In this document: positions 1,836 to 57,273 of the stretch, piece after piece
Position numbering within the stretch: the first letter of the stretch is position 1
Layout of the letters: every line of letters begins with the position of its first letter
Assembly: GCA_031835245.1 (NCBI GenBank)
Contig: JAVKOQ010000117.1
Coordinates: 1 to 64,000 of the forward strand
Origin: Balamuthia mandrillaris
Taxonomy: Eukaryota > Discosea > Longamoebia > Balamuthiidae
Reading direction: 5' to 3'
DNA length: 64,000 bases
Notes under the pieces: model-generated
Told to the model about the DNA's origin: nothing
Databases searched by the model: none
What the model saw: only the letters and a program-made list of their open reading frames with translations
Made by a program: the position numbers and the translations under genes

Positions 1836-2796
1836 TTTTTTTGGTTCTTTTGGTGTTCTTCTTTCTTCCTTTCCGGTTGCAGGTTTTATTTTTTGATTTT
1901 TCAAATTTTTTGAATAATAATTGAGTGTATCGATATTTGCAAAACACGATCGAGATTATTCGTCGACAAAACAGTAACCAAATTTATTCATGTCGACGTG
2001 AGTGTGAAATTAAGTTTACGTTGTTGACGTCGTCGTACCAGTGTTTCATGTCGACATCTTACGTTCGCCCTCTCCAGCGGGATCCCTCCTCTCGTTATGC
2101 TACCCTGCTCTTTCTTCCGCTGGTGTTAGGCTCTTCCAAGTCTTCCGCCTTTTCTTCCCAACAACCTGCTCGTCTTTAATTTAATTTTATTGCCACTCCA
2201 GCGACGGCTTTCCCCGATGACCTTCTGCGAACAAAAACCGATTCCAGTACTTTTCCAGTCCCACAAACCAAACCCGCCCGACCCCTCCCGATAAGTCGCC
2301 CGTATGCCCCCAGTCCAAAAACTCATTCTTACCTGTCTCCTTTCCACTCGCTCATTCCTTGCTTTACTCCTGGCGCCAAGTTTCTTCTTCTCTGTGCTTT
2401 CGCGAGAACGCAAAAGAAAAAAGGAACAAAGCCTTGGAGAAGGAGGAGTGGGGATTGTTGTTCTTGGCCTCTGCCTTGGCAAACGTTTATTGCTCACGAA
2501 GAAACGTTTTGTTGGTGAGGGTCGAGAATCGTCCCAACTTTGCGAAAAAGTTTGGCAGTGGACGCCCGCGAACTACTGGTTTGCGGGAGAACACTTTTTG
2601 ATAGCTGGGGTGTGTTCGCTCACCCCTCTCTTTTTACAAACCAAAGACAAACACCTCCTTTTTTTTGGTAAGAGAACACAGATAAAAGGAGCTTATATTC
2701 ACATGTGTATGCATAGAAAGCAAGGAAGAGAAAATGGTCGTATATTGTAGGAGGGAGCTTGTTTGAGCTGTGGGGGGTTCATGATTGCTCCCTGGC
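1836..2796. promoter_or_regulatory. Ras upstream region and unassigned sequence
   Basis: GTCGAC palindromes at 1962, 1992 and 2050 sit upstream of the minus-strand Ras start and probably belong to its promoter. From about 2180 to 2780 I find no convincing gene. A minus-strand ATG at 2355 followed by a strong GTAAGA donor (2332) and an acceptor near 2225 would encode only about 24 residues (start MSEWKGD). Plus-strand open frames at 2304-2750 are low complexity and unlike any family I know. Confidence 0.4.
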
Positions 2797-51072: not shown

Positions 51073-51458
51073 TTCTTTCTCTCTTTGTGTGTTTTATTAT
51101 GAACTCTTTCCTTCCCACAAACTCGGCTTTTTGTAGTTGGATGACGAAAACATGTGGAGAATCCAAAGGCAAAGGGCTCCAAGGGGGGGAAGGGGACCAG
51201 TTGTACTACTTTCGTTGTGCTTTCTCAGGAAATGAAGGCCGCGTGCCATCGACTTGCTGCTGATTTTCTTGCTGCCTTCTCCCCCCTTCTCTCTCTCCAT
51301 CAGCTTCATTTCTTGTCGGCATAAATTCACCAAGTTTCCGTCGACAAAAATCCTTGTCCGCAACAAATAAAATTGTGTCGACAACCCAAGTTCCCTCGTA
51401 GTCAGTGGAATCGATCTATTATGTTGGAGACAGAAGGAAAGAAAGAAAATAGACCAAC
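51073..51458. promoter_or_regulatory. Divergent promoter with two GTCGAC elements
   Basis: GTCGAC at 51340 and 51377, 119 and 82 bp upstream of the DNA glycosylase ATG. Both are followed by AA or AC, giving TGTCGACAA-like contexts. No additional gene is seen. Confidence 0.45.
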
Positions 51459-53057
51459 ATGCAACGAAGAACGACGACACGACAAAGACGTAGCAGCGAT
51501 GCTGCGGTGCTCATCCGCTACGCAGAAGAGGAGGAGGAGGAGGAAGTAGTGGAGGAGGAGGAGGAAGAGGAAGAGGGAGTGAGTGATGGTTCGGACTTTG
51601 AATGGGGACACGATAAACGAAAACGCGCCACAACGACGCCCAGACGAAGAAAAAGTTGGCCACAAAAGAGGCAAAAACGGAGCAGCAGCAACGCCAGGAA
51701 AACCAAAGTCAAGAAAGAAGTAGCAGAGAAGGGAGAAGAGGAAGAAGGAACGGTTGTGGATGAGGCCCTTCTTCGGTGGGATGGTTTGGAGGGTGCAGCT
51801 GCAGCGGAGGCCCATCGGGCCGTGCATGCGTTGCTTGTGGGGCTGTATGGCAGGCCGGAGCCCCGGCAGGATCCAGAAGGAGGGAGCAGGAGCAGCGCCA
51901 ATTGTTGCGGGCGCAAAGAAACAGTGTTGGAAGCGCTCATCAGCATCGTTCTCTCCCAAAACACTTCGGATCGCAACAGCAGAGCAGCTTATCGTGGCCT
52001 AAAGACCCGTTTCCCTTCCCCCGCTGGCAACGAAGAAGTGAAAGAGGAAGCAAAAGAGGAGACCAGCGATGCGACTGCTAATGCCAACCAAGCAAAGGAG
52101 AAACGACTTCTTCCTGTGAAGAAGGAAAAGAAAGAGGATGGCGAAAGCGAGAACTACACAGAAAATAAAATAAAGGAAGAAGAGGAAGAAGAAGAGGAGA
52201 AAGATGACAAACGGGAGGTGAAAGTGAAAAAAGAAGCAAGCACAACGATCGACATGGAGGCCGTTCGCTTGAGCAAGGTGGAGGACATAGAGGATGCCAT
52301 TCGTCCTGGAGGTTTGGCCAAGACAAAGGCCAGACGCATCAAAGCGTTGCTGCAGCAGATCCATGAAGAACGTGGAGGAAGTACCAGTTTGGAGTTCCTG
52401 AGGGACATGCCGACGGAGGAGTTGAAGGGGTACTTGCGGAAGTTTGATGGAGTTGGGCCAAAGACCATTTCTTGTCTATTGTTGTTCACGCTATGTCGAG
52501 ACGACATGCCAGTGGTAAGTTATCCTTTCTCCTGCCGTCTATTATTCATCTGTTTTCATCGTTCCTCTTACTCCATTATTCTTTATTTTCGTTCTTCTTG
52601 ATTCCGTCTCCTTCGTATTACTTTTTCTATCTTCCTTCTTCGTTGTTATCAACAGGATACGCATGTGGCAAGGGTTTCTCGGCGATTGGGGTGGGTCAAA
52701 CACAATTCCTCTCGAGAGGGCGCCTATGAGCATCTAAACCTACACACGCCCGATGAGCTAAAATACGACCTTCACAACCTTCTCATTGCTCATGGACGAA
52801 AGCTGTGCAGGTCGTCTAATCCTATTTGTGAGCAATGCCCTTTAAGGCAACAACATTGCTTGTATTACAAGCACGCTATCGAAGGAAAGAACGACAGCAG
52901 TTCAACAAAAAAGTCACAGAAGATACAACTGGATGAGAACTACTTCAGGTCTGCTTTGGCACAGATTGAAGAAAAGCTTGAAGATGAAGAACTGAAACGC
53001 AAGAAGACCACGACTGTGAAGAAAGAGAGGATAAAACGGGAGAAGAAAGACGCATGA
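51459..53057 (+). CDS. Endonuclease III-family DNA glycosylase with 4Fe-4S cluster
   Basis: 485 aa in two exons (51459-52514, 52656-53057). An Arg-rich, acidic disordered N-terminus carries nuclear-localisation-like KRKR and RRRK runs. The HhH-GPD core starts at ETVLEALISIVLSQNTSDRN. It contains the hairpin GVGPKT with the catalytic Lys and, across the intron, VDTHVARVSRRLG with the catalytic Asp. The cluster motif is CRSSNPICEQC plus PLRQQHC (C-x6-C-x2-C-x5-C). A ~90-residue Glu/Lys-rich insertion interrupts the core after GLKTRFPSP. Both catalytic residues imply a bifunctional glycosylase/AP-lyase acting in base-excision repair. It could be an NTH1-like or a plant DEMETER-like enzyme; NTH-like is favoured by size. 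Confidence 0.85.
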
Positions 53058-53345: not shown

Positions 53346-55000
53346 ATGAATGCACGCGAGCGGCTCAAAAAGAAAATAGCTGGCAAAGGCGGCTCTTTGA
53401 AGCAGTTTAGTTTTTTTCTCTTTTCTTTTTTGTTCTTCATCTTTTATTTCTTTCTTTCTCTCGTTTTAAACGACTCGTAACGCCTGATGATGATTACAGA
53501 GCGCGAGCGCAAGATGGCAAGCAACTTTGTGTCAAGTGCAAAAAACCAACCGCGTGCTTCTTGCCGCTCATCTCCACTGCCGCCTGCAAGAACTGCCAGA
53601 AGGAACACAAGGAGCTGCAAACCATCAGCCGCAGCGCCGCCAAGAAGGAGCTCCTCGCCACGGATGCCGTTCTCGACGAGCTGCCCTCCTCCGACAAGCC
53701 GAACCCTTACAACCCAAAAGGTGCTCCCATGAAGACCTACATGAGGTCCGTTGGTTGCTCTATTTCTCCTCGTTTCTTTTTTTCGTTTTCGTTGTTGTTG
53801 TTGTTGTTAACACTGTGGACCAAACAAAAAGACAAGAGGTGGAGAAGGCCATGATAAGAGTGTATGGTGGACGAAAGGCTTGGAAGGCAGCTGTCCTCAA
53901 AGCTCAGTCCAAGTCTGCTTCCTCTTCTGCGTCATCCTCCTCTTCTGCTTCCACTCCTGCCATGAAAGGTCCGGCTCCGATTCTCTACTTCTCTCTCTTC
54001 TCCCTTGGTCTCACATTCTCTCTCATCTCCACTTTCCCTTTCTCTCTCCCCCTTATTTTGTCCCTCATTCTCTTTCTCTCTAGTTTGTTTCATCCTAAAC
54101 CTTTGGTTTTTAAATACAGAGGTAAATCCTCAACCAAAAGAAGTTTCGTTTTACTCTTCCAAAGACCGACCCTATGGCTGTTTCTCCAACTCTTCCGCCC
54201 ATCCCATTACGCTCCACGACAAAGAATGGCCTACTGTGGTTTGCTCCTCTCTGCCTTCGTCCTTCTTCCTTCTTCTTTCTTGCTCTTAAACTGAAAAACA
54301 AACACACAAAAAAGGAGCATTACCTACAAGCTCAAAAGTTTGCAGGTTTACCAATGGAAGAGCAGATACGCGGTGCCATCAGCGCCAAAGAAGCAAAGAG
54401 CTTGGGCTCCACCAAGGAAATCCCCAAACGTCGTGATTGGGATAGGGTCAAGGACAACGTGCTCTATGAGGCCGTGCTGGCAAAATGTAGGCAACACAAG
54501 GACGTGTCTCGTCTTCTGCTGTCCACTGGCAATGCACCTATCCACTATTGTTCTCCCGATGGTCTTTTTCATTTTGCTTCTTGTTCTTTCTCGTTTCTTC
54601 TCTTTCTCATCCTGTGTCTCGTTTTGCCTCACCGTCCACAGATGCTTATTGGGGAAATGCAGGCGATGGGACTGGAAGAAATCAGTTGGGCAAAACGTTG
54701 GAGGTAGTCAGAGGCAAGTTGAGGCGAGAGGCAGAGATGAAGGCCATGAAAAAGAAGCACTCTTCTACAGGAAAGAAGAAGCGGTATCGAAGTGATGATG
54801 ATGACGAAGAGGAGGAAGAAGAAAACGGCGTTGAAGGTAGTGAAGAAGACGAAGAAGAATACAAGGAACGACAACCACGAAAGAAAAAGCATAAGCAGCA
54901 GCAAGACAATGGCAAAGAGAAAGAAAGCAAACAGAAAGAGAAGGAGCAGGAAGGCAAGAAGCCAACGCTGAAGGAGTTTGACATTAGCGATGTACTGTAG
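53346..55000 (+). CDS. XPA-type zinc finger fused to NADAR domain
   Basis: 388 aa in six exons (53346-53404, 53500-53745, 53832-53968, 54120-54238, 54315-54561, 54642-55000), in frame throughout. N-terminal part: a four-Cys zinc site (CVKCKKPTACFLPL, ACKNCQKEH) followed by SAAKKELLATD and APMKTYMRQEVEKAMIRVYG, the arrangement of the XPA damage-recognition core. After a Ser-rich linker comes a complete NADAR/YbiA domain: VSFYSSKDRPYGCFSNSSAH, WPTVEHYLQAQKF, RDWDRVKDNVLYEAVLAKC, YWGNAGDGTGRNQLGKTLEV. NADAR enzymes are N-glycosidases acting on ribosylated substrates; some reverse guanine ADP-ribosylation in DNA. The tail is acidic then Lys-rich, possibly nuclear. Linking DNA-damage binding to an ADP-ribose-removing domain suggests a DNA repair enzyme (inference). 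Confidence 0.82.
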
Positions 55001-55250: not shown

Positions 55251-55762
55251 CTCTTTTTTTTTTCCTGCTTCGTGTTAGAATGGAACAAACAACAACAACA
55301 ACAACAGAACAGTGAAAGGGAACTGGTACGGTGGATACGACGAAGAGTTTGTCTTTGTTGGATGCTTCTTTCTTGCGCACTGGCTGCTACGTTTTTCTTT
55401 CTGCAACAACAGCTTGAGCGCCACTACGTTTTCGATAAACAAAAACATTATGGATCGAAAGGGCGGAATAATTTTCGATATTTAATTAATATATTACCAT
55501 ACAAGGAAAGTTATAATCGAATGTATGATTTTCCATTGGCTAGGACAAAAAATTCCAAAAATAAATCGGACCGAAAAAAACGAAATGCCAAAAATAAACA
55601 TCATGGGAGGGAACTGGGAAACTGGTTAGTACGAAATGTAGCAACCCAACCTCTCTCTCTCTCTCTTGAGACACGACGAAACCTTTCCTTCGCTCAGTGA
55701 CTTGCCTATATATTTTTGTTTTCCAGTTTGCAAAGGACTTTGTGCGCACCACCAAAACAAAC
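55251..55762. other. Upstream region of the ankyrin gene
   Basis: AT-rich sequence with TTTTCGATATTTAATTAATA at about 55472 and a CT run near 55650. There is no GTCGAC and no gene that I can support. Confidence 0.3.
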
Positions 55763-57273
55763 ATGGAGAAGAGGGAAGAAGAAAGACTGCCGGGCTACCT
55801 CAGGGACGACTTTGACTGGTGCTGCCACCGCATCGCCCAGCTCCAGAAGGAGACGGGCGGGGTGGCGCTGCCGCTGGTCCGCTGCCCAGAGAACGACTAC
55901 TCCCATGTCACCAACTTTCGCACCTTTTGCAAGTACGGGCTGTTGAGGAAAGTGAAAGAGATGGTCGCCTGGTGGAACGAGCAAGGGAAAGATCAAACGC
56001 TGCTCTTCAGGGCTGGCAACCGTTTTGGAGAGACCGCATTGCTGCTGGCCGCCAAATACGCGCAGTTGGAAGTGGTCGACTACCTTTTAACATTCAAAGG
56101 CAGTTGTGACCCAAACTTTAGTGCCATCACCCCACGGAGAACACGTGACCAGCTGCCCCTGACCAGCGCCTGCAAAAGCTACAGCCGTGCTTGCTTTGCC
56201 AGAAAGCAAACGCGCCACATAGAGACCGTTTTGAGCCTTTTGGAAGCAGGAGCGAGAAGCAGCGTCAACGACCCTTCGGACCTGACGACGGCTCTTCGTG
56301 CCGCATCGTGGACTGGGTCACAGACCTTGCTGAGACTGTTGTTGTGTTATCAGGTCGCGGAGAACTCGCGGAAGAAACCTACGTTGGCGGAGGCGATGGA
56401 CTGGATCGAGCAGTTAAAGGATTGTCAGGCAGTTGCTGTACCGAAAAGTACTATGGGGAAAGAAATCTTTCGTTTGAAAGGACGAGCCCATCACGCAAGG
56501 CATCTCCTTTTAACACGAAGAAGGAGAGAGGGAAATGAAATGGAAGCAGAAGAAAACGAAGAGGAAGCGGAAGAGTTTGACGCAAACGAGGAACAAGACG
56601 AAGTGCAGAAAGGCCGCTACAGAATATCACCGTTAGAGTTTGCATGCAGAGAAGGCTATTGGAACGTTGTGACTGTCATGTTAGCAAAAGAGTCCATACG
56701 AGAACGTATGCAACAGGACCAAGTCAAATGGATCCGACGACGTCGCCCGCATATGACCCCTTTACATTTTGCTTGTTTGTACGATATCCTCTCTTCGTTC
56801 TCTTCATCGTTCTCTTCTCTTCATCGTTCTCTTCTCTTCTCTTCTCTTCTTTTCTCTTGCTTTCTCTCTTGTTTTACCGCTTTATGCTTGCTTTTTCTTG
56901 TTTCAACGTGGAGTTATTCTTGTTCTCGTTGTACTTCTTTTCTAGTTCTTCTTTATTTGGAGCCATGAACTGACGATTGTTGCGAAACAGAAATGACCAC
57001 CTAGTAAACCAAGCCACACTTATAGAGCAGCTAGTAGGAGCAGGAGCCAGTCTTTGGATACCCAACCAAAAGGGACAGCTGCCGTTCGACCTTGCCAGCA
57101 AACCAACCACCAGGCGCATCTACCACGTGGCCATCACTCTGTGGGCTGGTTGGCGGTGGAGCTGGGAGGACCCAGAGACACACCCCGACTGCCCGTTGGG
57201 CATGCTGCCAAGAGAGATGATAGCCCTCATCCTCGGTGCAGCACTGCGAATGGAACACCACCACAAGTTTTGA
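55763..57273 (+). CDS. Ankyrin-repeat protein
   Basis: 432 aa in two exons (55763-56778, 56991-57273). Ankyrin repeats: FGETALLLAAKYAQLEVVDY, TALRAASWTGSQTLLRLLL, YRISPLEFACREGYWNVVTV and, across the intron, MTPLHFACLNDHLVNQ continuing to EQLVGAGASLWIPNQKGQLP. An acidic spacer (~residues 260-285) separates the repeat groups. The C-terminus (PLGMLPREMIALILGAALRM) resembles an F-box or SOCS-box-like helix, so a role as ubiquitin-ligase adaptor is possible but unproven. The intron uses a GTACGA donor and AACAG acceptor; the overlapping ATATCCTCT at 56782 is not needed. Confidence 0.75.

Follow-up and report, generated by a model that had tools for sequence, protein, structure and literature searches.

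An XPA-like core joined to a NADAR domain with an altered catalytic position in Balamuthia mandrillaris: a possible DNA-tethered reader or processor of ADP-ribosylated guanine

Introduction

NADAR proteins, one eukaryotic member included, have been reported to hydrolyse the N2-guanine ADP-ribose linkage, with reversal of pierisin's own product being an assumption of the same authors (PMC11543638). XPA protein is described as preferring pierisin-treated DNA, which bears N2-ADP-ribosyl-guanine, an adduct that is itself a substrate of nucleotide excision repair (PMC11359729). Here we analyse a 64,000-nucleotide stretch of Balamuthia mandrillaris DNA (contig JAVKOQ010000117.1, positions 1 to 64,000; hereafter the window), in which a single gene encodes an XPA/Rad14-like core followed by a NADAR domain. 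A preliminary description of the window, made from the sequence alone, had named no earlier described protein with this pairing, and we likewise found no account of it in the literature searched.

Each of the closest described systems resembles the fusion in part. YbiA-type NADARs (E. coli YbiA, 2b3w; P. nicotianae NADAR, 8bau) match it over the whole domain, by profile and by fold, and in the equivalents of E43, K50, W89, D130 and W133, but the fusion has Tyr265 for Glu125, Ser219 for Arg79, an XPA-type core and a long charged tail. With XPA/Rad14 (PF05181, TIGR00598) it shares a four-cysteine (C4) finger of similar spacing, the core fold to about human residue 231 and a Met-Lys/Arg after the hairpin; in contrast, Gly stands in place of the Trp175/Phe wedge, and a linker and the NADAR domain replace the TFIIH-reaching end. 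DarT1-NADAR antitoxins differ in that theirs use Asp171 and in that a DarT profile search of the Balamuthia genome found no match, on which ground a DarT partner for the fusion was rejected. Finally, C. elegans SNA-3, a nuclear trans-splicing protein with three NADAR domains, the first of which is described as being without the critical residues, parallels the fusion as a eukaryotic nuclear use of NADAR, whereas an XPA-type core goes unmentioned in the available part of that report (PMC9303266). In the Discussion of a further study, the roles of eukaryotic NADARs are treated as an open question (PMC11125620).

Results

One gene of six exons encodes both domains

The XPA-NADAR fusion is one real gene. 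Its layout is as follows:

53346..55000, plus strand: whole gene, with exons at 53346-53404, 53500-53745, 53832-53968, 54120-54238, 54315-54561 and 54642-55000, encoding 388 amino acids and a stop codon
53528..53895, plus strand: XPA/Rad14-like core (residues 30-123), split by intron 2
53528..53596, plus strand: C4 finger, CxxC-x15-CxxC (residues 30-52), read from the sequence, with identical spacing in the relative P0010 and a structural model that fits Rad14/XPA from about residue 27
54149..54724, plus strand: NADAR domain (residues 158-297), split by introns 4 and 5

The five introns (53405-53499, 53746-53831, 53969-54119, 54239-54314 and 54562-54641) are all of the GT-AG type. This agrees with the preliminary description, which had proposed a eukaryotic gene with a single 388-residue frame in six exons; it named the first four introns, and the fifth is the one required by its own exon count. 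The assembly searched for this brain-infecting amoeba (64.79 Mb, 775 contigs) holds a second haplotype of the gene (L014, contig C59) with the identical exon layout, whose spliced translation equals the NCBI protein P0001. Identity between the two copies is 96.7% in exons and 84.7% in introns, with 3 and 71 gap columns, respectively. Non-synonymous (dN) and synonymous (dS) divergence amount to 0.0149 and 0.109 over the whole gene, to 0.0069 and 0.104 in the XPA part (small counts: 2 non-synonymous, 8 synonymous) and to 0.0058 and 0.096 in the NADAR part (again small counts: 2 and 9), while the C-terminal tail has the highest dN of the gene parts (0.040; dS 0.158). The slow protein change of the XPA and NADAR halves between haplotypes counted for the DNA-tethered reading discussed below.

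At NCBI the gene is labelled as NADAR domain-containing, and nothing further. A shorter record, P0002 ('variant 4'), begins at Met97 and reads into the last intron, suggesting that an intron-retaining form may exist. Both records probably stem from the annotation of three Balamuthia strains, which was made with Funannotate and RNA-seq reads (PMC10471605).

Profile and fold evidence uphold the two homologies proposed earlier. The NADAR domain is matched by Pfam PF08719 at E 2.6e-32, its 112.8 bits lying above the cut-off of 35.1. For the XPA half, TIGR00598 (rad14) matches residues 40-123 of P0001 at E 7.1e-11 (42.1 bits, below the equivalog cut-off of 113.15), and XPA_C (PF05181) matches residues 60-105 of the product encoded in the window at E 6e-4 (20.1 bits, below the cut-off of 25) and likewise falls short of its cut-off in P0001; XPA_N (PF01286) is not among the profile matches listed for the fusion. 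Rad14/XPA chains from the PDB match the fusion at E 7.1e-6 to 1.9e-3 with a single sequence and at 1.1e-10 at best with a fusion profile. Structure prediction, a check named in the preliminary description, was in agreement: the AlphaFold2 model of P0001 contains both the XPA/Rad14 DNA-binding-domain fold and the YbiA fold, with the proviso that a fold family missing from the structural-comparison matches is not thereby ruled out. As to XPA membership, both the four zinc-binding cysteines and the DNA-binding-domain fold are present.

The architecture is retained in distant relatives

The same fusion was found in other sources, as the preliminary description had suggested checking. Seven relatives hold parts of both halves (P0003, P0005, P0006, P0010, P0011, P0012 and the short piece P0017) and represent at least two gene lineages besides that of Balamuthia. 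They came from two of three protein searches; the third, with residues 1-150 alone, returned only P0001 and P0002 among 1317 candidates and gathered no canonical XPA, hence no tree of the XPA part. The architecture is retained in a distant lineage by P0010, a full-length protein of 374 amino acids in which the four cysteines are equally spaced, XPA_C scores 25.4 against the cut-off of 25 and NADAR is matched at E 8.9e-33. XPA_C reaches 25.8 bits in P0006, 24.8 in P0011, 21.5 in P0003 and 19.1 in P0012. Identity to P0001 is 49% in P0011, 48% in P0010, 47% in P0003 and 40% in P0006, and lower in P0012 (33%) and P0017 (36%), which look like unspliced translations. By eye, extra stretches in P0012 start where introns 2, 4 and 5 lie in Balamuthia (none at intron 3), and P0017 has one, at the site of intron 4; P0012 and P0003 also contain stretches at places without a Balamuthia intron. 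The coincidence with Balamuthia intron sites suggests, from protein records, that the fusions may share intron sites and hence a single origin. A viral origin was rejected, as a scan of viral contigs with P0001 gave no confirmed relative among 600 pattern matches.

Tyrosine replaces the catalytic glutamate in the fusions

In the NADAR half, a key change lies at the following codon:

54546..54548, plus strand: Tyr265, where NADARs of the YbiA subfamily carry the catalytic Glu of the last strand (E125 in P. nicotianae NADAR), from alignment to 8bau

Positions are given in the numbering of PMC11543638 by way of alignment to 8bau, where subtracting two from the chain position gives the published number for those named residues that were checked by eye. 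The alignment comprised 78 of the 82 proteins from the searches (P0002, P0006, P0012 and P0017 were left out), 73 rows being non-fusions. Among these, E125 is Glu in 71, Lys in one (P0008) and a gap in one, in a sample that was gathered with the fusion as query, includes many cyanobacterial proteins and hardly, if at all, covers Asp-type or His-type NADARs. By contrast, all five aligned fusion rows (P0001, P0003, P0005, P0010 and P0011; three genes) have Tyr, as do P0002 and P0012 outside the alignment; P0006 and P0017 stop short of the site. The structural equivalent of E125 in E. coli C7 NADAR is reported to be D171, whose replacement in D171A and D171N abolished efficient guanine de-ADP-ribosylation (PMC11543638).

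Two further positions differ. R79, a pyrophosphate contact, is Arg in 61 of the 73 non-fusions, as against Ser219 in the Balamuthia fusion and Glu in the other fusions; R93 is Lys or Arg in 72 of 73, and is Lys in the Balamuthia fusion and Gln in the others. The ADP-ribose-site residues E43, K50, W89, D130 and W133 are kept as Glu188, Lys195, Trp229, Asp270 and Trp273 (P0005 is broken after the Tyr).

The assembly contains 18 NADAR-matching stretches, exons and haplotypes counted apart, and eight of the loci behind them were translated (L001-L008). Several active-site types occur among the eight: five loci (L001, L003, L005, L006 and L008) carry Glu, L002 carries Gln, and Tyr is seen at L004 and L007. 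The last two (contigs C372 and C214) represent a NADAR paralogue with a 623-amino-acid open frame in which no XPA-like stretch was seen by eye. In the tree, the Tyr forms make up one clade: L007 groups with the fusions (support 98/88), and the Glu-bearing P0004 is sister to them (100/97). The branch of L007 is long and its exact place unsure, and on that tree the fusions by themselves do not form a clade. A further NADAR protein, P0009, shows a weak S1 RNA-binding match ahead of its NADAR domain (20.9 bits, slightly below the cut-off).

The XPA half is without the wedge and the TFIIH-reaching end

In the XPA-like core, the residue at the hairpin wedge is altered:

53720..53722, plus strand: Gly94 against Trp175 of human XPA (Phe in Rad14), the hairpin wedge, from alignment to 1xpa

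Gly occupies this position in P0010, P0003 and P0006 as well. Trp175 of XPA is reported to stack at the junction of single- and double-stranded DNA (PMC9739396, PMC6599211), and XPA has been argued to mark the edge of the bubble more than the lesion itself (PMC6599211). Matches to TIGR00598 stop at positions 100-109 of 171, and structural alignments of the core reach about human residue 231; for the TFIIH-reaching end of XPA further on there is no counterpart.

When the assembly was scanned with the PF05181, PF01286 and TIGR00598 profiles and with the core of P0010, no convincing XPA core came up besides the fusion and its haplotype; as exons were read one by one, the lack of another XPA is likely, not proven. 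Three candidates were discarded: L011 was judged spurious (22 positions, 16.4 bits), L012/L013 matched XPA_N over 16 positions only (E 2.3), and L016/L017 turned out to be the terminal part of the XPC gene. ERCC1 (E 8e-20) and XPC (BHD_3, E 1e-14) were both found. In the XPC gene (contigs C1/C90; L016 1501-1914, minus strand, with haplotig L017), the final 40 amino acids of the last exon match TIGR00598 positions 132-171 at E 7.2e-5. Plants have been reported to be without XPA (PMC3969565).

Conserved termini and neighbouring genes

The remaining features of the protein lie at its two ends:

53349..53393, plus strand: conserved N-terminal motif NARERLKKKIAGKGG (residues 2-16); over residues 1-16, P0001 and P0010 are identical at 12 of 16
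54725..54961, plus strand: end of a long helix and a Lys/Glu/Asp-rich low-complexity tail, with the dN maximum given above and a predicted local confidence (pLDDT) mostly below 70 beyond residue 310
54962..54997, plus strand: C-terminal peptide PTLKEFDISDVL (residues 377-388), identical at 8 of 12 residues in P0010 and 7 of 12 in P0003

The conserved C-terminal peptide, E[FW]DI[SC]D[VI]L, forms the very end of the fusion protein and is a possible docking motif. Assembly-wide, an exact DNA pattern for the last C-terminal residues is present nowhere but in the fusion gene and its second haplotype, and a docking motif common to other proteins was rejected because the exact-match pattern is confined to this gene.

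Directly 5′ of the fusion lies a gene (51453-53057, plus strand) matching the HhH-GPD base-excision family at E 3.8e-5, slightly below the cut-off, whose cysteine cluster we take to resemble that of endonuclease III; it neighbours the fusion in the other haplotype too. On the 3′ side, a gene with ankyrin repeats follows at 55670-56965 (plus strand), and elsewhere in the window a tRNA-Val (aac) of 93 bases is located at 2469-2561 (plus strand).

Discussion

We tentatively favour the view that the fusion is a DNA-tethered NADAR protein, in which an XPA-derived module holds an ADP-ribose pocket on DNA and which acts on ADP-ribosylated guanine as either a reader or an altered hydrolase. The pairing is chemically sensible, since the preference of XPA for DNA bearing N2-ADP-ribosyl-guanine and the hydrolysis of that very linkage by NADARs would direct core and pocket to one adduct. 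Judging from the predicted fold, the XPA/Rad14-derived finger and core, devoid of the wedge and the TFIIH-reaching end, would hold the protein on DNA. By analogy with its family, the NADAR pocket would engage ADP-ribose on nucleic acid, most likely at N2 of guanine. A function mainly as a reader or adaptor, or as a hydrolase of slow or altered activity, appears preferable to that of a standard YbiA-type eraser, because the catalytic acid is a Tyr while the equivalents of E43, K50, W89, D130 and W133 are kept. Speaking for this view are the recognition of both domains by profile and fold, the architecture retained in P0010, the site-specific substitutions within a largely preserved pocket, the single clade of Tyr forms beside a Glu-bearing sister, the effect of D171A and D171N, and the adduct preference of XPA protein. 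The conserved N- and C-terminal peptides might dock partners, perhaps, at a guess, repair factors, and the role of the protein would presumably be nuclear.

Several observations weigh against this view. The wedge is lost from the very module that would provide DNA binding. In the fusion, all four residues homologous to those critical for the YbiA N-glycosidase, which from the SNA-3 report we interpret as Glu, Trp, Asp and Trp (PMC9303266), are retained, and the protein may therefore still be active. The catalytic position is described as varying among NADARs as Glu, Asp or His (PMC11125620), and single non-fusion NADARs lack Glu too (Lys in P0008, Gln in L002); a Tyr might therefore also work. 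Conversely, loss of the pyrophosphate Arg, together with Gln at R93 in the fusions outside Balamuthia, could weaken the ADP-ribose binding that a reader needs.

An active eraser, a direct-reversal repair enzyme whose XPA-like core locates the bulky lesion and whose NADAR domain hydrolyses ADP-ribose off guanine, seems to us less likely. The preserved fold and pocket residues, including the YbiA-critical four as interpreted, speak for it, as does the preference of XPA protein for N2-ADP-ribosylated DNA (PMC11359729); against it stand Tyr for the catalytic Glu and Ser or Glu for Arg79 in the fusions covering these sites, and the missing wedge. This reading goes back to the preliminary description, in which both domains were said to look intact and the protein was suggested to be a single-protein find-and-repair system, perhaps one that protects against bacterial or viral ADP-ribosyltransferases; the DarT profile, as noted, found none in the Balamuthia genome. 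Intactness does not hold, given the three substitutions and the absent TFIIH-reaching end. As for the system, the chemical logic of the pairing stands; its completeness in one protein is not established, because the catalytic acid, R79 and the XPA wedge, key residues in both halves, are changed. A reader or altered enzyme is thus at least as likely as a complete find-and-repair protein. Of similarly limited probability is a broader scenario in which XPA was taken apart in the amoeba lineage, its TFIIH-binding end coming to lie on XPC and its DNA-binding core joining NADAR to form a dedicated ADP-ribosyl-guanine sensor or processor that would link ADP-ribose chemistry to nucleotide excision repair.

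The fusion could instead be the amoeba's sole XPA-family protein, acting in nucleotide excision repair with NADAR as a module for protein or DNA contacts. Three profiles and one protein query exposed no other convincing XPA core in the assembly, although both ERCC1 and XPC were detected there, and an XPA-like tail closes the XPC gene. However, neither the wedge nor the XPA end past about human residue 232 has a counterpart, TIGR00598 scores 42 against 113 with matches that end well before its last position, and the lack of another XPA comes from searches that read exons singly; we consider this reading improbable. Much the same applies to NADAR as an N-glycosidase acting on small molecules or on RNA, combined with an XPA-like core that is a generic binder of nucleic acid or protein unrelated to DNA damage: the acid at the catalytic site is changed, and a partner domain of the XPA type points to DNA. 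That a wrong gene model joined two neighbouring genes is highly improbable. The shorter NCBI form P0002 might hint at it, yet even this record spans the XPA-NADAR join, and an artefact is disfavoured because the second haplotype contains the same fusion, as do P0010 and P0006, which come from other sources.

The conserved fusion to a DNA-repair core provides natural evidence for one eukaryotic NADAR working on DNA, and the exchange of Glu for Tyr in the fusions makes the choice between reader and eraser directly testable. Should the lineage be without a canonical XPA, the finding would also bear on how nucleotide excision repair may run without XPA.
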